64,000 bases of DNA, from positions 186,001 through 250,000 of the forward strand of contig JAOAPC010000022.1 in NCBI GenBank assembly GCA_025462735.1. Reading direction: 5' to 3'. How positions within the stretch are numbered: the first letter of the stretch is position 1; each line of letters starts with the position of its first letter. The DNA comes from Acidobacteriaceae bacterium (GTDB lineage Bacteria; Acidobacteriota; Terriglobia; Terriglobales; Acidobacteriaceae). The notes under the pieces are model-generated. The model was not told the origin of the DNA, did not search any database, and saw only the letters and a program-made list of their open reading frames with translations. Made by a program: the position numbers and the translations under genes. Positions 6,165-20,391 of the stretch are shown here, one piece after another.

Positions 6165-7661
6165 ATGCCCTTAAAAACTCTGTTCTTGAACCCTCCCTCT
6201 TTTGAAAATTTTGATGGTGGAGCTGGCTCACGCTGGCCGGCGACTCGTGAAATTGAGTCCTACTGGTATCCGGTCTGGCTGGCTTATCCGACCGGCATGA
6301 TAGAGGGCGCTCGGCTGCTAGATGCGCCACCGCATTACGTCTCCGCCGAGGAGACCATCAACATCACCAAGGAATACGAGTTTCTGGTGCTTTACACCAG
6401 CACCCCGGGATTCCCGGGGGACATCCGCCTGGCAGAGCGCATTAAGGACGCGAACCCCAAAATCAAAATTGCATTCGTAGGCCCTCACGTCACGGTCCTG
6501 CCGGAGCAGTCCTTGCGCGAGGGACGCGCCATTGATTTCGTGGTCCGCAAGGAATTCGATTACGCGGTAAAGGAATTCGCCGACGGCAAGCCGATGGACG
6601 AGATTCTTGGAGTGTCGTACCGGAAGAATGGATCGTTTGGGCATAATGCCGACCGGCCGCAACTTGAGGACCTGGATTCCCTGCCCCATGTGACTGATGT
6701 TTACCACCGCGATTTAGACGTCCGCCGGTATAACGTTCCATTCCTTTTGCACCCCTACGTATCGCTTTACACCACGCGAGGCTGCCCAGCGCAGTGCACA
6801 TTCTGCCTGTGGCCGCAGACGACCAGCGGGCATGCGTGGCGCAAGCGTTCCACTGATGACGTAGCGCGAGAGATGGCCAAGGCCAAAGAGTACTGGCCAT
6901 ACGTAAGAGAGTTTTTCTTCGATGACGATACCTTTAACATCCAAAAGGCCCGGACCGTCGAGCTGTGCGCGAAGCTGAAGCCGCTGAAACTGACCTGGTC
7001 TTGCACGTCGCGAGTCACCACCGATTACGAAACTCTGAAGGCAATGCGCGAAGCGGGATGCCGCCTCCTGATCGTCGGCTATGAATCCGGCGATGCGCAG
7101 ATCCTTAAGAACATTAAGAAAGGCGCAACCCTCGAGCGCGCCCGCCAGTTCACCAAAGACGCCCACAAGCTCGGGCTGGTGATTCACGGCGATTTCATTC
7201 TGGGCCTGCCTGGAGAGACGCGTGAAACCATCCAGAACACGATTGCGTTTGCCAAGGAGTTGGATGTTGAGACCATTCAGGTGTCGGTTGCCCATGCTTA
7301 TCCGGGAACGGAGCTGTACGATTTTGCCGTGAAAAACAATTTCATGGTGAAAGGCAGCATGGTGGACGCAGGCGGACACCAGCTGGCTCATATCGAATAT
7401 CCCGGGCTGCCGGCAGATGAGATTCTGCACTCTGTCCACCGCTTCTACGACGAATATTACTTCCGGCCAAAAGCGGTTTTCCGCATCTTACGGAAGGCTG
7501 CGTTCAATTCTGGAGATCGCAAGCGGCTGTACAAAGAGGCCAAGACGTTCCTGAAAGTGCGGTCAATGAGGAACAAGTTGGTGAAGGACAACGCCAGGGA
7601 TGCCGCTAACGGTAAGCCGCAGACCGCTGCTCCACCGCCGCCAGAAACCGTCCAGGTCTGA
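6165..7661 (+). CDS. hpnJ: B12-binding radical SAM enzyme HpnJ, hopanoid cyclitol-ether formation
   Basis: The 498-residue protein matches HpnJ in its opening (LKTLFLNPPSFENFDGGAGSR) and layout. An N-terminal cobalamin-binding-like domain (about 1-150, with FVGPHVTVLPE) precedes a radical SAM barrel with the iron-sulfur motif CxxxCxxC at Cys207, Cys211 and Cys214. In known hopanoid producers (work in Burkholderia), HpnI adds a glucosamine-type sugar to bacteriohopanetetrol, HpnK deacetylates it and HpnJ converts it to the cyclitol ether. Neither squalene-hopene cyclase nor hpnI/hpnK is in the window. A Pro/Ala-rich tail follows residue 470. Two small membrane-protein genes follow within 6 bases and probably belong to the same operon. 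Confidence 0.9.
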   Translation: MPLKTLFLNPPSFENFDGGAGSRWPATREIESYWYPVWLAYPTGMIEGARLLDAPPHYVSAEETINITKEYEFLVLYTSTPGFPGDIRLAERIKDANPKIKIAFVGPHVTVLPEQSLREGRAIDFVVRKEFDYAVKEFADGKPMDEILGVSYRKNGSFGHNADRPQLEDLDSLPHVTDVYHRDLDVRRYNVPFLLHPYVSLYTTRGCPAQCTFCLWPQTTSGHAWRKRSTDDVAREMAKAKEYWPYVREFFFDDDTFNIQKARTVELCAKLKPLKLTWSCTSRVTTDYETLKAMREAGCRLLIVGYESGDAQILKNIKKGATLERARQFTKDAHKLGLVIHGDFILGLPGETRETIQNTIAFAKELDVETIQVSVAHAYPGTELYDFAVKNNFMVKGSMVDAGGHQLAHIEYPGLPADEILHSVHRFYDEYYFRPKAVFRILRKAAFNSGDRKRLYKEAKTFLKVRSMRNKLVKDNARDAANGKPQTAAPPPPETVQV

Positions 7662-7667
7662 AGGCAC

Positions 7668-8096
7668 GTGAACCTTCGCAAGTATCTAGTGCTCGCCGGG
7701 GTGAGCGTTTTCGCTCCCCTGGGAGACTCCTTTCTCTCCTATGGCATGAAGCAGGTTGGGAATATTTCAATGCGGAATATACCTGACCTGCTGCTTGCAA
7801 TTACAAATCCGTGGGTGGGGATCGGGATCATTCTCCTTCTCGGGTTTTTTGCTACCTACATGACCGCTCTTTCCTGGGCGGATTTAACCTACGTGCTTCC
7901 TGCAAGCTCCCTGGGCTATGTTCTGCTTGCGCTGATCGCTCGGTTCTTTCTCCACGAACAGATCAGCCTGACACGCTGGCTCGGCATCGCCCTGGTCTCA
8001 ACCGGAGTCGGCTTCGTTACCAGTGGACCGGAAGTTACCGGCCGCCCCCCACGGCACCTCGCAAATGATGGCAGTGTTGCGACGGAGCATTCATGA
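7668..8096 (+). CDS. Small DMT-family (EamA/ArnE-like) membrane protein, first of a pair
   Basis: This 142-residue protein has four predicted membrane helices and the DMT/EamA signature GDSFLSYGMKQVG near the N-terminus, then SWADLTYVLPASSLGYVL and a final helix GIALVSTGVGFV. It starts at GTG 7668, six bases after hpnJ, and overlaps the next gene by ATGA. The next gene encodes a paralogue, so the two likely form a heterodimer as ArnE and ArnF do for an undecaprenyl-linked aminosugar. A role in flipping the hopanoid product or precursor is inference from position only. A 25-residue polar tail is extra compared with ArnE. Confidence 0.8.
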   Translation: MNLRKYLVLAGVSVFAPLGDSFLSYGMKQVGNISMRNIPDLLLAITNPWVGIGIILLLGFFATYMTALSWADLTYVLPASSLGYVLLALIARFFLHEQISLTRWLGIALVSTGVGFVTSGPEVTGRPPRHLANDGSVATEHS

Positions 8097-8488
8097 TCCG
8101 GCACGCGATCAGCAACCTGAATGGCTGGCTGGCAATCCTGGCGATTGTGCTTTCCTCGAGCGCCGGAGATGTTCTGCTGTCGCGGGGAATGAAGCAGATC
8201 GGCGATGTTGGCGAGCTGCGACGAAAGCGCGGGTTAAGTTTCGTCCTCTCGCGGATTTTGCGAAGCCGTTATTTTTTGATCGGCGTGGCGTGCATGGCAA
8301 TTTCGTTCTACAGCCTGCTGTTTGGGTTGTCGTGGAATGATGTCAGCCTGATTGGGCCCGCCGCCGCTTCGCTCACGTTCGTGGCCAACGCTTTCGCGGC
8401 GAAGATATTCCTTCACGAGAGGGTTGATCGCCGGCGCTGGGCGGCTGCCCTGTTTGTGGCTGCGGGCGTAGTTCTAATGGGACTCTGA
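8093..8488 (+). CDS. Small DMT-family (EamA/ArnF-like) membrane protein, second of a pair
   Basis: The 131-residue product also has four membrane helices and repeats the partner's signature as GDVLLSRGMKQIG, with LSWNDVSLIGPAAASL matching the partner's second half. Its last helix is WAAALFVAAGVVLMGL. Start ATG at 8093 overlaps the previous stop by 4 bases, a sign of coupled synthesis in equal amounts. The pair resembles ArnE/ArnF and other paired small multidrug-resistance-like proteins that form obligate heterodimers. The substrate is not known; the link to hpnJ makes a glycosylated hopanoid a reasonable guess. Confidence 0.8.
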   Translation: MIRHAISNLNGWLAILAIVLSSSAGDVLLSRGMKQIGDVGELRRKRGLSFVLSRILRSRYFLIGVACMAISFYSLLFGLSWNDVSLIGPAAASLTFVANAFAAKIFLHERVDRRRWAAALFVAAGVVLMGL

Positions 8489-8529: not shown

Positions 8530-9837
8530 TTATTGACCCGTCACCGTGGTCCAGAACCACGCCAGCGATAGGATGATCAGAATGGCGCTGGTGGACCAAG
8601 CCATCACATTCACAAATCTCGAATTCCGATATTCCCCCATCAACTCTTTTTTGTTGACCAGGATGAGCATAAAAATGAGCAGGAACGGCAGCAGAATACC
8701 GTTCACCACCTGTGAGTAGAGAAGAACTTTGAGTAGCGGGATTCCAGGCAGCAGTACGACTCCTGCACCGAATGCAATCAGCAGAGTGTAAAGCCAGTAG
8801 AACGCCGGAGCTTCAGAGAACCTCTTGTTTATTCCGGACTCGAATCCCAATCCCTCACAAATGTTGTAGGCGGTGGCTAGCGGCAAAATCGCCGCAGAAA
8901 GCAGCGAGGCGTTAACCAGTCCAATGGCAAAGAGCAGGAATGCCCATTGTCCGGCAAGGGGCTTCAGCGCGGCCGCAGCGTCCGCGGCATCGGTAATATT
9001 GTGGACTCCCGAGACGTACAAGGTCGCCGCACATGCTAGAACGATGAAGAACGCGATCACGTCGGTGATGATGCAGCCCAAGATCACGTCCCAGCGGCTG
9101 AGTCCATATTGTTTCTTGCCGATTCCCTTCTCCACAATCGAGGCCTGCAAATAGAACTGCATCCACGGAGTGATGGTAGTCCCGATTAAGCCGATGACCA
9201 TGACCAGATATTCGGAACTCCTGCTCACGGTGGGGACGATAGTGTCGTGAATCGCGGCCTTCCAATTGGGGTGGGCCAAGATGGCCGAAATCACATACGA
9301 AAAATAGATCAGAGAGAAGACGATGAGAATTCTCTCTACCGGCTTATATGAATTCCGCACCACCATCATCCACACCAGAGCAGCACCAATGGGCACGGCG
9401 ATATACTTGCTGACTCCGAAAAGCCCCATGCCGGAAGCCATGCCGGCAAACTCGGCCATGATGTTGCCAAAGTCCGCCAAACCCAGGACGAGCATGGTGA
9501 AAAATGTCACCCTGAAACCAAATTCCTCACGGATCAGGTCCGAGAGTCCTTTTCCGGTGACGGCGCCCATGCGCGCCGCCATTTCCTGAACGATGATCAG
9601 AGCGATGGTTGTTGGAATCAGAGTCCAAAGCAGCGCGTAACCGAACTTCGCTCCTGCCTGGGAATAAGTGAGGATTCCGCCGGGATCGTTATCAACGTTG
9701 GCGGTGATAAAACCCGGGCCGAAGATGGCCAGAAATGCTAGTAAACGGAACTTCATGGAACGCAGAGGCATGCGCCGCCGCGACTTTTTTGCTCGCGGAG
9801 CTTGCGACACCGGCTTCACCGGAACACTCTGGTTCAT
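8530..9837 (-). CDS. Nramp (SLC11) family divalent metal transporter with variant metal site
   Basis: The protein has about 435 residues and eleven membrane helices, typical of Nramp. In helix 1 the metal-binding motif is DPGG (residues 51-54) in place of the usual DPGN. In helix 6 the usual MPH is replaced by TPW (residues 223-225), so the soft methionine ligand that favours manganese and iron is missing. A branch of SLC11 lacking this methionine has been described as magnesium transporters (NRMT), and the TPW/DPGG combination fits that branch as I remember it. The upstream gene encodes MgtE-type magnesium-sensing domains. I place the start at ATG 9837; the frame is open to 9909, adding 24 doubtful residues. 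Confidence 0.87.
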   Translation of the reverse strand: MNQSVPVKPVSQAPRAKKSRRRMPLRSMKFRLLAFLAIFGPGFITANVDNDPGGILTYSQAGAKFGYALLWTLIPTTIALIIVQEMAARMGAVTGKGLSDLIREEFGFRVTFFTMLVLGLADFGNIMAEFAGMASGMGLFGVSKYIAVPIGAALVWMMVVRNSYKPVERILIVFSLIYFSYVISAILAHPNWKAAIHDTIVPTVSRSSEYLVMVIGLIGTTITPWMQFYLQASIVEKGIGKKQYGLSRWDVILGCIITDVIAFFIVLACAATLYVSGVHNITDAADAAAALKPLAGQWAFLLFAIGLVNASLLSAAILPLATAYNICEGLGFESGINKRFSEAPAFYWLYTLLIAFGAGVVLLPGIPLLKVLLYSQVVNGILLPFLLIFMLILVNKKELMGEYRNSRFVNVMAWSTSAILIILSLAWFWTTVTGQ

Positions 9838-10056
9838 TTCGCGCCCTCTGGTGCCTGGAACCGGGGTCAGGTTCCAGGTCTTCCAGCTTCTCTGAAACTG
9901 CCTTTGCACTCTGAACAGACATAAACAAATAGTTCAACGCCGAATCAGGATAACCGCAGACGCGCGAATTTGAACAGTTGAAATTGCTCAATATGGATTA
10001 ATTTTTGTTGCGAATGGACCGGGCGAAGAAAACCACGCTGGGCGACTAACCCGAGG

Positions 10057-11334
10057 CTACAACTTTGCTCGCAACAGGCTGATGACATCATCAGACGTAA
10101 TTACGCCGGTCAGTACACCTCGATCATCTAAGACCGGCAGGATTACGAGGTTGTATTTGTCGAACAATTCCGTGACCTGCTTCTCTCGTGCGCCCGCATG
10201 CACGGAGATCAATGGCTCGACAACGAGGGATGACAGCTTGTCTTCAGCCTTCGCCAAAACCAATTTGGCAAGTGGAACAGCGCCCACCAGCTTTCCCTCA
10301 TCATCCACGAGGAAGATGGTATGGACCGACTCGACGGCGCCTTCGAACTTGCGCAGCGTCTCGATTGCATCGTTCACCGTGGCCTTTGAATCGAGTGCCA
10401 AATATTCTGTATTCATCCGCCCGGCGGCGGTGTTTTCACGGAACTCCAGCAGCTCGGCAACTTCGTCGCGTTCCTGCGGAGCCATGTCGCGCAAGATTTG
10501 CGAGCTGCGTTCCTCCGGTAGCGTGGCGAGGAGGTCTGCGGCCGCATCCGGATTCATCTCCTCAACGATGTCGGCGGCGCGCTCGGAATCCAGCGACTCA
10601 AGAATGGACTTCTTGACTTTGGGCTGCACCTCTTCGAGTGCGCCTGCAGCCACTCCCTCGTCCAGCGTTTCGAAAACGGCTTCGCGCTCGCCGGGGGTCA
10701 GGGACTCCACAATGTCGGCAATGTCGGCGGGATGGAGCTTCGCCAGCCGCTCGTGAGAAATTTTCAGCTTCACCCGGCGGGCAGGATCGGTCTCGATCAG
10801 ATCCACAAACTCCCATGGAATCAGGCGGGGCGGAATTTTCTGCAGAAGCACGTTCAGCGCCGCCATGGGAACTATGCCCTTAAGCAGCCGGCGGATGGCT
10901 CCCCGAACGCCCACATCCACAGATGCCACTTTCAGTCTGATACGCCCGTTGCTGGTCTCGCAATACAGATCGACGTCGTTTACGCGTACAACTTTGCGGC
11001 CATGGACATCGATGATCTGTTGATCGAGGAGGTCACGTTCGAGCAGGAACAGTCCTTCACCCTCGACTGCGACCCAATTGGAAGCGGCAGAACTCGCGCG
11101 AATGCCGCCGTTCAGGTTCGAAACGGCAGAAAGTGGCAATAGGCGGTCGCCCTGTTTCGTACGGACGATCAAGGTTGAAATATGGACAAGATCATCGGCG
11201 GGGGTAAGAGCAATCTCGCGCACACGTCCGCCCTGAACGCCGGAAGAATCCATCACCGGGGCGCCCAGCAGTTCGGTCAGCGCAATCGTGCCCATGTTTT
11301 GAGAATGGGCGAGAGTGGAAATGTTGTCAATCAT
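10057..11334 (-). CDS. PRC-barrel, MgtE_N and tandem CBS domain protein, likely magnesium sensor
   Basis: The 425-residue soluble protein has a PRC-barrel-like N-terminal part (about 14-150, with two beta-barrel halves), an MgtE intracellular N domain of superhelical repeats (about 190-300: LHPADIADIVESL, SERAADIVEEMNPD, PEERSSQIL) and two CBS domains (about 305-425). The linker AAGRMNTEYLAL matches the MgtE N-to-CBS junction. The MgtE membrane pore is absent. In MgtE these domains bind magnesium and gate the channel, so this protein probably senses magnesium for the Nramp-like carrier encoded 220 bases downstream on the same strand. An alternative start is the ATG at 11295. Confidence 0.85.
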   Translation of the reverse strand: MIDNISTLAHSQNMGTIALTELLGAPVMDSSGVQGGRVREIALTPADDLVHISTLIVRTKQGDRLLPLSAVSNLNGGIRASSAASNWVAVEGEGLFLLERDLLDQQIIDVHGRKVVRVNDVDLYCETSNGRIRLKVASVDVGVRGAIRRLLKGIVPMAALNVLLQKIPPRLIPWEFVDLIETDPARRVKLKISHERLAKLHPADIADIVESLTPGEREAVFETLDEGVAAGALEEVQPKVKKSILESLDSERAADIVEEMNPDAAADLLATLPEERSSQILRDMAPQERDEVAELLEFRENTAAGRMNTEYLALDSKATVNDAIETLRKFEGAVESVHTIFLVDDEGKLVGAVPLAKLVLAKAEDKLSSLVVEPLISVHAGAREKQVTELFDKYNLVILPVLDDRGVLTGVITSDDVISLLRAKL

Positions 11335-11462: not shown

Positions 11463-12326
11463 ATGACTGCCAGCCGCATAGTTCGCCATCAGAATGCCGC
11501 CGCCGAGATTCCCCCGGTTCCGCTGACCATCGAGGGCTACAGCGTCCTGCATCAGATGATGCGATTCCGTTGGTCCGCGTGGCGCGGGCTTGATCCCGCA
11601 AAAAAGACCGAAATCGTGCGGGAAGCAAGTCAGCTGCTCGGTACTTGGGAACAAGGCAAATCAGGGCAGTCAGCGCTGTATTCGCTGATCGGGCACAAGG
11701 GCGACTTGATGCTGGTGCACTTCCGCAACTCCTTCGATGACCTCAACCGCGCGGAAATGCAGTTGGCACAGTTGCGGCTGAGCGATTACCTCGAACCTAC
11801 AACTTCCTATCTGTCGGTGATCGAGCTCGGGCTTTATGAATCCAGTCTGAAGACCTATCGCGAGCTGGTTGAGCAAGGCATCGAGCCGCATTCGGAAGAA
11901 TGGAAGCAGGCAGTGAATGAAACCTTGGATCGCCAGCGCGAAGCCATGCGCCCCCGGCTATTTCCGGAAATTCCCACTGCCCGGTATATCAGCTTTTATC
12001 CCATGGATCGACGCCGCGGCGAGGAGAAGAACTGGTACACGCTGCCCATGGAAGAACGGGCGCGCCAGATGAACGAACACGGACTGGTAGGACGGCGCTA
12101 TGCGGGAGAGGTAAAGCAGATCATTACTGGTTCTATCGGGTTCGATGATTGGGAATGGGGCGTCGATCTGTTTGCCGACGATCCCATAGTTTTCAAGAAG
12201 CTTATTTACGAAATGCGCTTCGACGAAGTGAGCGCTGTCTACGCGCAATTCGGGCACTTCTATATTGGGGTGCGTTGTTTGGCCAATAGCCTGGGTAAGC
12301 TGCTAAACGGCGAAGTGCCGGAATAG
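11463..12326 (+). CDS. hemQ: Coproheme decarboxylase of the chlorite dismutase family
   Basis: HemQ (ChdC) turns iron-coproporphyrin III into heme b with hydrogen peroxide, the last step of the coproporphyrin-dependent heme route. The 287-residue protein has the family's two ferredoxin-like halves. Tyr179 in YPMDRRR matches the catalytic tyrosine, and His206 in RQMNEHGLVGR fits the proximal heme ligand. The arginine-rich YPMDRRRGEEKNW loop is typical of HemQ and unlike true chlorite dismutases. It is divergently oriented to the magnesium-sensor gene and two bases ahead of a nucleotidyltransferase gene. No other heme gene except ctaB is in the window. Confidence 0.85.
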   Translation: MTASRIVRHQNAAAEIPPVPLTIEGYSVLHQMMRFRWSAWRGLDPAKKTEIVREASQLLGTWEQGKSGQSALYSLIGHKGDLMLVHFRNSFDDLNRAEMQLAQLRLSDYLEPTTSYLSVIELGLYESSLKTYRELVEQGIEPHSEEWKQAVNETLDRQREAMRPRLFPEIPTARYISFYPMDRRRGEEKNWYTLPMEERARQMNEHGLVGRRYAGEVKQIITGSIGFDDWEWGVDLFADDPIVFKKLIYEMRFDEVSAVYAQFGHFYIGVRCLANSLGKLLNGEVPE

Positions 12327-13003: not shown

Positions 13004-13023
13004 CCCGGCACTGACGTGCCGGG
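13004..13023 (+). terminator. Perfect hairpin after the nucleotidyltransferase gene
   Basis: CCCGGCAC and GTGCCGGG pair over 8 bases around a TGAC loop, 43 bases after the stop codon. There is no clear run of T behind it, so it could be a weak terminator or a small dispersed palindrome rather than a classical terminator. Confidence 0.45.
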
Positions 13024-13058
13024 CTATCTAAATTCCGTTGCTTCGCGACTCAATATAA

Positions 13059-13790
13059 ATGCAGCAGAAAGTCACAATGAAACAGACTTCAAAGACGCAA
13101 GCTTCTTCGCTCATCGACTCAGTGCTGGGCCTCAATCCTCGGCTAGCGGTTTTCGACTGTGACGGGACGTTGTGGTCCGGCGATGCCGGCGAGGGCTTTT
13201 TCGACTGGGAACTCAAGCGCGGCGTCGTCTCCTACGAAATTGTTCGATGGGCCCGAGCACGATACGTCGAGTATCGCGAAGGCAAAGTCAGCGAAGACGC
13301 TATGTGTGGAGAGATGGTGACTCTGCATCAGGGTCTGAAAGAAGTCGATGTGCTCGCGTTGGCGCGTGAGTTCTTCAAGGAAAACTTCGCGGGCCGAATC
13401 TTTTCGGAAATGCGCGAACTAATCAAGCGCCTGCAGGCGACCGGGTGCGATGTCTGGGCGGTATCGTCGACGAACCAATGGGTGATCCGCGAAGCCATGG
13501 CTTACGTGGGAATCTCGCCGGAGAAAATCCTTGCGGCCTCCGCCGAAGTGAATGGCGGGACTATTACCGGCAACCTCACCCGTATGCCTTCGGGCCCAGG
13601 GAAACCTAAAGCGATACTTGAAGTAATAGGCGAGGTGCCTGATGCCGCCTTCGGCAACTCTCGTTGGGACGCCGACATGCTCACCCTGGCCAGATATCCG
13701 GTTGCAGTAAATCCGAATCCTGATCTGGAAAAGCTTGCACGGGAGAAAAGGTGGACAATCTATTGGCCTGCCGAAGTTACTGCTGAATGA
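13059..13790 (+). CDS. HAD-IB family phosphatase (SerB-like)
   Basis: The protein (about 240 residues) carries the haloacid dehalogenase motifs in order: FDCDGTLW (nucleophile and acid-base Asp), SSTN (motif II), a Lys in GPGKPKAIL (motif III) and GNSRWDADML (motif IV). A helical cap lies between motifs I and II. This layout is that of subfamily IB, which contains phosphoserine phosphatase and related small-molecule phosphatases. The exact substrate cannot be told. ATG at 13059 and ATG at 13077 are both possible starts; neither has a strong ribosome site. Its 3' end overlaps the convergent NTF2-like gene by 14 bases. Confidence 0.82.
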   Translation: MQQKVTMKQTSKTQASSLIDSVLGLNPRLAVFDCDGTLWSGDAGEGFFDWELKRGVVSYEIVRWARARYVEYREGKVSEDAMCGEMVTLHQGLKEVDVLALAREFFKENFAGRIFSEMRELIKRLQATGCDVWAVSSTNQWVIREAMAYVGISPEKILAASAEVNGGTITGNLTRMPSGPGKPKAILEVIGEVPDAAFGNSRWDADMLTLARYPVAVNPNPDLEKLAREKRWTIYWPAEVTAE

Positions 13791-20294: not shown

Positions 20295-20391
20295 TGGCGG
20301 AAGCGAGTGGGAGTCGAACCCACCATCGCCATCAGAGATAACGATCTACGGTTTTGAAGACCGCGAGAGTCACCGGACCCCTTGCGCTTCC
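20295..20391 (-). tRNA. selC: tRNA-Sec (anticodon TCA), with encoded CCA
   Basis: On the minus strand the transcript begins GGAAGCGC and ends TCGCTTCCGCCA, giving an extended acceptor stem with one C-U mismatch at the eighth pair. The anticodon arm CGGTCTTCAAAACCG has loop TTCAAAA with anticodon TCA. A long variable arm and a GTGGG/CCCAC T-arm follow, and the discriminator base is G. At about 94 bases before CCA and with this arm pattern, it matches bacterial tRNA-Sec. It delivers selenocysteine at UGA codons together with SelB. Confidence 0.93.

Follow-up and report, generated by a model that had tools for sequence, protein, structure and literature searches.

A 64,000-nucleotide stretch from an Acidobacteriaceae bacterium (assembly GCA_025462735.1, contig JAOAPC010000022.1, positions 186,001 to 250,000; hereafter the window) carries on its minus strand a gene pair encoding an NRMT-type SLC11/Nramp carrier (8530..9909, 459 amino acids as listed) and a soluble partner with tandem PRC barrels, an MgtE_N domain and a CBS pair, without the pore or plug helix of MgtE (10057..11334, 425 amino acids). 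This is a real gene pair of an already described kind, for which our analysis adds evidence of a functional tie and a better anatomy. The preliminary description of the window had suggested that such a two-gene system would be new, a claim overturned by Shin et al. 2014 (PMC4072509), whose accessible text describes the neighbourhood of an NrmT carrier and an MgtE-like fragment and proposes feedback regulation. What is new here is that the two genes co-occur almost completely even when they are unlinked, that the partner has two PRC barrels and no plug, and that a DPGG-clade carrier stands beside the partner. The analysis demonstrates what both proteins are, how nearly complete their co-occurrence is and how the partner is built. 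As to function, an NRMT-type uptake carrier for Mg2+ (and Mn2+) with a putative docked cytosolic regulator stands, in our estimate, about an even chance of being the right reading. The partner's role was left open by Shin et al.; the co-occurrence, the joint absences, the PRC pair and the missing plug now lead to specific tests of it, and in one group of bacteria the pair may be the sole recognised route of magnesium uptake.

The carrier belongs to the Nramp family (Pfam Nramp, E 1.1e-106 over residues 80-431), and its best match among all PDB sequences is EleNRMT (7qia and its sister entries; E 9e-115, 387 bits, residues 46-452), followed by MntH, a classical Nramp, at 119 bits. In the alignment to EleNRMT, the metal site of helix 1 (D75-P-G-G78; 9676..9687, minus strand) lies within the sequence N74-D75-P76-G77-G78, which is specific to the carrier's clade as described below, and that of helix 6 (T244-T-I-T247-P-W249; 9163..9180, minus strand) lies within GTTITPW (T244-T245-I246-T247-P248-W249). 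T247 occupies the methionine position of helix 6 and W249 the first histidine position; both helix 6b histidines are replaced, by W249 and L254, just as they are replaced by W and N in EleNRMT (PMC8806188). The same source gives the NRMT motif as DxxG-TxxA/T and that of manganese and iron carriers as DxxN with A/CxxM. The window carrier has the former (D75..G78, T244..T247) and departs from the classical MntH/Nramp signature, with T247 for the helix 6 methionine and G78 instead of the DxxN asparagine. The preliminary description was therefore right that the methionine is missing, and its placement of the carrier in the magnesium-type SLC11 branch is supported by the 387 bits to EleNRMT as against at most 119 to other Nramps and by the DxxG-TxxT pattern.

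Co-occurrence of carrier and partner across genomes

Orthologues of both proteins were sought in a phylum sample of 199 genomes and a class sample of 200, with 21 genomes in both samples. With phylum cuts chosen after the lists had been seen (carrier at least 45% identity, the next match standing at 37%; full-length partner at least 32%, the next at 31%), both orthologues were found in the same 45 of the 199 genomes, the partner being present in 45/45 carrier genomes vs 0/154 others. The class sample, with cuts of 1e-110 for the carrier and 1e-55 for the partner that were likewise fixed after the lists had been seen, gave 154 genomes with both, 40 with neither, 2 with the carrier only and 4 with the partner only. 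The carrier-only genomes are G231 (82% complete) and G338 (66% complete). Two of the four partner-only cases (G240, G314, G342 and G347) are contig-end effects, as the carrier of G347 is cut by a contig end and the partner of G314 lies 136 bases from one; in G240 the partner lies 174 bases from a contig end.

Physical linkage is looser. In 26 of the 45 pair-bearing genomes of the phylum sample the genes lie within 1.5 kb of each other, in 6 they are 2-6 kb apart, and 13 have them about 200 kb from each other or on separate contigs. For each of the 12 genomes with separate contigs, one gene of the pair or both sit more than 10 kb from both contig ends, and contig ends therefore do not explain the unlinked pairs. 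The genes also go missing together: in genera that otherwise bear the pair, genomes at least 97% complete that lack both genes are G337 (genus g4), G257 and G279 (g161), G307 (g177), and G141 and G189 (g41). Seven genomes of genus g41 have the genes on separate contigs, while G141 and G189 have neither. Other joint absences in pair-bearing genera are found in G275, G358, G326, G370, G340, G374 and G377 (57-95% complete).

Among the named carrier loci, which are the best 80 of 573 relatives, the partner is near the carrier in 48, always upstream and on the same strand, with 9 showing an overlap of a few bases between the two matches; the remaining 32 have no partner in reach, some because the stretch is short. 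Two of the named records, L174 and L188, bear acidobacterial-type pairs under the titles Bifidobacterium breve and Rhodanobacteraceae; mislabelling or mixed bins are the probable reason. A second group of carriers (33-37% identity) occurs in 11/199 genomes, next to a partner whose match begins only at about residue 90 (about 20 in G072), and in 11/11 of these genomes the gene order is reversed, with the carrier first. Loci L119-L129 belong to this second group, with NDAGG carriers (31-36% identity) and the partner behind the carrier; in 10 of the 11 partners the match starts only at about residue 80-97, which would fit the absence of the first PRC barrel. Counting the 45 genomes together with the 11 that have a distant partner beside a distant carrier, no genome among the 199 has such a partner without a carrier of the branch. 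The pairing of carrier and partner is thus not chance, and near-complete co-occurrence together with the unlinked pairs ties the two genes in evolution. The lack of conserved linkage that the preliminary description had named as a refutation is accordingly not borne out, linkage being kept in part and co-occurrence almost completely.

The carrier beside the window's partner is not of the kind usually found there. In a FastTree tree of 149 carriers (for which the program warns of long branches, and which leaves out the genome's own paralogue L002 as below the cut for rows), the window carrier sits in a 28-row clade with support 100. The NDPGG sequence is found in 27/28 rows of this clade (it was not caught in L136) and in 0 rows outside it, and T at the methionine position in 28/28 clade rows and some outside rows too. 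Carrier and partner adjoin in just two rows of the clade, the window and its nearest relative L135 (89% identity); the other rows have no partner in the stretch examined, some of these being short, or have it 7 kb away in L223. The window carrier's clade differs from that of the carriers in other sampled family members, and no ordinary carrier was found in the window's own genome. In seven genomes (G209, G295, G315, G323, G343, G355 and G359) the partner stands without a carrier within 4-5 kb and, among the matches listed, a DPGG-clade carrier lies on another contig; these genomes may also have an unlinked ordinary carrier beyond the matches listed. G311 has both kinds of carrier, the ordinary one adjoining the partner. 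A HAD gene at 13059-13790 of the window recurs near the carrier in 32/80 named loci and a MobA gene in 13/80, neighbours which suggest that this is the old place of the pair. We infer that the ordinary carrier was replaced here by its DPGG relative while the partner stayed. As a separate observation, L137 and L223 carry both NRMT-branch clades in one stretch, as tandem neighbours in L223 (2176-4799).

Architecture of the partner protein

A Pfam scan of the partner finds PRC at residues 14-72, MgtE_N at 200-301 and two CBS stretches, and no match to the MgtE pore domain PF01769 was found in the partner protein or in its own genome. The first PRC barrel (residues 14-92; 11059..11295, minus strand) scores 25.5 bits against a cut-off of 21.2 and is weakly conserved. 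It is followed by a second, highly conserved barrel with an RR...IPW segment (residues 94-178; 10801..11055, minus strand), by the MgtE N domain (residues 200-301; 10432..10737, minus strand; Pfam MgtE_N 1.1e-27), and by the CBS pair, assigned by Pfam CBS and by alignment to Thermus thermophilus MgtE (residues 302-425 and the stop codon; 10057..10431, minus strand). The preliminary description thus stands as to MgtE_N and CBS domains without the MgtE pore and as to the presence of PRC, and is amended in that the PRC barrels number two, not one.

The second barrel is not seen by a single-sequence Pfam search of the window's protein, which gives no PRC match there. Comparison of the barrel 2 profile with that of barrel 1 by hhalign gave a probability of 74 and E 2.7e-5, and Pfam PRC matches 22/47 of the barrel 2 segments scanned at E up to 1 (best 1.1e-4), the window's segment not being among the 22. 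Residues 13-180 folded alone gave a predicted local distance difference test score (pLDDT) of 94.0 and a predicted template modelling score (pTM) of 0.88, and this predicted PRC pair matches the CdpB1/CdpB2 complex 8qzo (Foldseek E 1.2e-5; Z 12.9, 124 residues, root-mean-square deviation 2.7), with the match extending through residue 168 of the fragment. An AlphaFold2 model of the whole partner built from 94 relatives has a mean pLDDT of 89.0 and a pTM of 0.51. This model aligns with the cytosolic domain of MgtE (2yvy; Foldseek E 1.7e-19; VIA Z 20.5, 230 residues, root-mean-square deviation 7.1), and we read the high deviation as a different orientation of the domains. Sequence matches in the PDB to solved MgtE cytosolic domains span partner residues 192-424, and in the whole-partner Foldseek and VIA searches the MgtE part alone is covered, except in one row, among the matches listed.

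Across 99 distinct partners, conservation (the mean share of the commonest residue) is 0.64 in barrel 2, with 13 columns at 90% or above, 0.68 in MgtE_N, with 24 such columns, 0.55 in each CBS domain and 0.40 in barrel 1. Barrel 2 is therefore conserved like MgtE_N and more than the CBS domains or barrel 1, and D104, D109, V118, D120, R148, R149 and W174 of its region have a share of 1.00. This barrel has no counterpart in the matched MgtE structures.

The MgtE part was compared with MgtE site residues taken from the accessible text of PMC5882242 and PMC5529423. In the same 99 partners, the D95 position is D in 98, D91 is D in 67, D247 is D in 72 and E59 is E or D in 81. In contrast, at the Mg5 pair D226 is D in 6 (N in 88) and D250 is D in 4; at further sites R187 is R in 18, D188 is D in 3 and F227 is F in 3. 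The window partner itself has G59, D91, D95, N226, D247 and S250. Among seven MgtE proteins from the phylum, D91, D247 and D250 are kept in 7/7, D226 in 5, D95 in 1 (E in 5), D188 in 1 and F227 in 0. At the ATP-contact residues Y170, R187, D188, N203 and F227 the window partner has T, A, K, V and L, and the phylum's MgtE proteins also differ (F227 0/7, D188 1/7); because they share part of that loss, we base no argument on the ATP site. The partner stops at about residue 255 of MgtE, where the plug helix (E258/D259) would begin, and 0/99 partners extend more than 10 residues past the end of the window protein. As far as the alignments go, the clear differences from MgtE are thus the Mg5 pair and the plug. 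Judged by the residues kept, a metal-dependent change between the N and CBS domains would be plausible, and plugging would not.

Metal, mechanism and alternative explanations

Transporter content bears on which metal the pair serves. In the window's own genome (97% complete) neither CorA nor an MgtE pore was found; its P-type ATPase matches all stay below the MgtA cut-off, and it has three further Nramps. Over the 199 genomes, counted without correction for kinship, MgtE pores occur in 8/45 pair-bearing genomes (3 of the 8 being weaker matches of 69-86 bits) vs 109/154 others, CorA in 26/45 vs 101/154, which alone is no strong contrast, and MgtA over the cut-off in 9/45 vs 17/154. None of the three was found in 13/45 pair-bearing genomes, the window's included, vs 10/154 others, two of those ten (G029 and G066) having the second carrier group. 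These counts favour magnesium, while a published result on Acidobacterium capsulatum, given below, favours manganese; we lean towards magnesium for this genome.

In the reading we prefer, the carrier would import Mg2+, and could import Mn2+, without proton coupling. The partner would be cytosolic, its PRC pair docking on the carrier, directly or through something bound to it, and the dimer of MgtE_N and CBS domains would sense cytosolic divalent metal and damp uptake when metal is plentiful. The likeness of the PRC pair to CdpB1/CdpB2, a heterodimeric complex, is counted for docking. Since the partner lacks the plug helix and part of the Mg sites, it probably does not close the carrier as MgtE closes its own pore. 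A bolder version holds that the PRC docking pair and the MgtE sensor form an obligate, exchangeable regulatory subunit of SLC11 carriers, kept across the carrier swap, which works without MgtE's plug and so would act by docking, not plugging. We regard this as possible, with the chances somewhat against it; if true, it would to our knowledge be the first demonstrated case of a regulatory subunit acting on a bacterial Nramp-type carrier.

Several observations weigh against the regulated magnesium carrier. The partner identities are close across the phylum cut (32% vs 31%), yet the E values there are 1.2e-57 vs 1.3e-43, and the co-occurrence counts share ancestry across genomes. The window partner has lost E59 (to G), D226 (to N) and D250 (to S), and D95, which is D in just 1/7 phylum MgtE proteins, is therefore a weak mark of a Mg site. 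Neither an M-box nor a yybP-ykoY riboswitch was found in any of the 199 phylum genomes, under strict filters with which weak matches are lost, and the fusion of carrier and partner for which the preliminary description had proposed a search is absent, none of 354 open frames matched by either query being matched by both. The accessible text of Shin et al. (PMC4072509) further reports on the A. capsulatum pair ACP2976/ACP2977 tested in Bacillus subtilis, where the carrier ACP2977 gave full rescue of a manganese-transport mutant and magnesium rescue only at low millimolar concentrations, and co-expression of the partner brought no gain. The preliminary claim of magnesium uptake thus keeps its branch assignment, a pure magnesium role being weakened by an A. 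capsulatum carrier that acted mainly on manganese in B. subtilis; its cytoplasmic gate is likewise weakened by the absent plug helix, the mostly lost Mg5 site and the co-expression without gain.

The B. subtilis rescue is also the main support for a carrier that is chiefly a manganese, or broad divalent, importer with a partner answering to manganese, magnesium passing only at high concentration. EleNRMT itself also carries Mn2+ (PMC8806188, PMC10115441, in their accessible text), and the window's DPGG/TxxT site is a variant of its DAGG/TxxA site. That the DAGG-to-DPGG change might point to a different substrate was weighed, and the evidence leans neither way. Nevertheless, we consider a chiefly manganese role unlikely, as the three further Nramps of the genome could serve transition metals where CorA, MgtE and an ATPase over the MgtA cut-off are lacking, MgtE pores are rarer in pair-bearing genomes, and the window carrier does not share a clade with those of the other sampled family members. 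To a similar degree we doubt that the partner is no transport regulator at all and is instead a metal buffer or chaperone, an assembly factor, or a relay of a metal signal to another protein through its PRC barrels. A partner with no plug helix and a mostly lost Mg5 site, with a strongly conserved barrel 2 foreign to the matched MgtE structures, and often not beside its carrier would suit such roles, as would the co-expression without effect, and Shin et al. themselves name a chaperone role for the MgtE-like partner (PMC4072509, accessible text). However, the lack of any partner without a branch carrier in the 199 genomes (45 + 11) ties the partner's role to the carrier, and the B. subtilis test under magnesium starvation would not reveal a brake.

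An inherited neighbourhood with no functional tie is the explanation to which we give the least credit by far. In its favour are the recent common ancestry of many of the genomes and the repeated presence of the HAD gene (13059-13790) near the carrier. Against it, co-occurrence is kept in the 13/45 genomes with unlinked genes, and G141 and G189 are jointly without both genes in a genus where the genes are unlinked.

The locus and comparison with known systems

On the minus strand the partner gene (10057-11334) precedes the carrier gene (8530-9909). The listed start of the carrier is a GTG, and the reading frame based on it runs through a hairpin between the two genes (9854..9878, minus strand), a perfect inverted repeat with a 9-bp stem and a 7-base loop. 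A start at the ATG of position 9837 is more likely and gives 435 amino acids; the hairpin ends 16 bases ahead of that ATG, and with this start the gap between partner and carrier is therefore 219 bases. The hairpin was sought in 1,768,250 bases and was present only in the window and in copies of the same genome stretch. Riboswitch control of the pair was rejected as a candidate, the RNA scan around the genes giving only a chance-level match to RT-6.

Around the pair, the plus strand at 6165-8488 holds a gene for a B12-binding radical SAM protein and, after it, two half-size membrane genes of EamA type that overlap by 4 bases, an arrangement seen in 1/80 named loci (L156). A chlorite dismutase-family gene (11463-12326, plus strand) is divergent from the partner and was found at 0/80 named carrier loci. 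An Acido-Lenti-1 RNA (13004-13050, plus strand; 44.1 bits, gathering threshold 37) lies directly ahead of the HAD gene, and further along is a selenocysteine tRNA (20299-20391, minus strand; Rfam tRNA-Sec, 69.9 bits), so that the organism may use selenocysteine.

Among known systems, the closest solved structure to the carrier is that of EleNRMT from Eggerthella lenta (7qia), which has the metal-site D, G, T and W in common with it and differs in having A where the window carrier has T247 in helix 6 and A where it has P76 in helix 1; the accessible text of PMC8806188 mentions no partner protein. The cytosolic domain of T. thermophilus MgtE (2yvy/2yvx) shares with the partner the N domain and the CBS pair, with D91, D95 and D247 kept in the window partner. 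It differs in that the pore and plug helix are absent from the partner, whose MgtE part has two PRC barrels in front of it. The solved heterodimeric complex CdpB1/CdpB2 from Archaeoglobus fulgidus (8qzo) has a tandem PRC-type fold like that of the partner, at 18% identity and in another context, a likeness of fold that shows no function.

The nearest precedent for the pair as a whole is the NrmT and MgtE-fragment pairs in the accessible text of Shin et al. 2014 (PMC4072509), where an NRMT-type carrier is encoded directly downstream of a cytosolic MgtE-domain gene, as in the window and in the same bacterial class. A. capsulatum is a member of the Acidobacteriaceae, class Terriglobia; no record with that title is among the best 80 of 573 relatives, and we therefore infer the orthology to ACP2976/ACP2977. 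A literature search lacking most subscription papers found no later work on the role of the MgtE-like partner and no paper joining PRC-barrel with MgtE. The window partner fits the accessory protein of the Shin type, being a cytosolic MgtE-type protein encoded beside an NrmT carrier. As for ACP2977, and unlike the clostridial examples of the same paper, no riboswitch was found for the window pair. The accessible text on these pairs makes no mention of PRC barrels, of which the window partner has two, and the window carrier belongs to the DPGG/TxxT clade, elsewhere not seen beside the partner.

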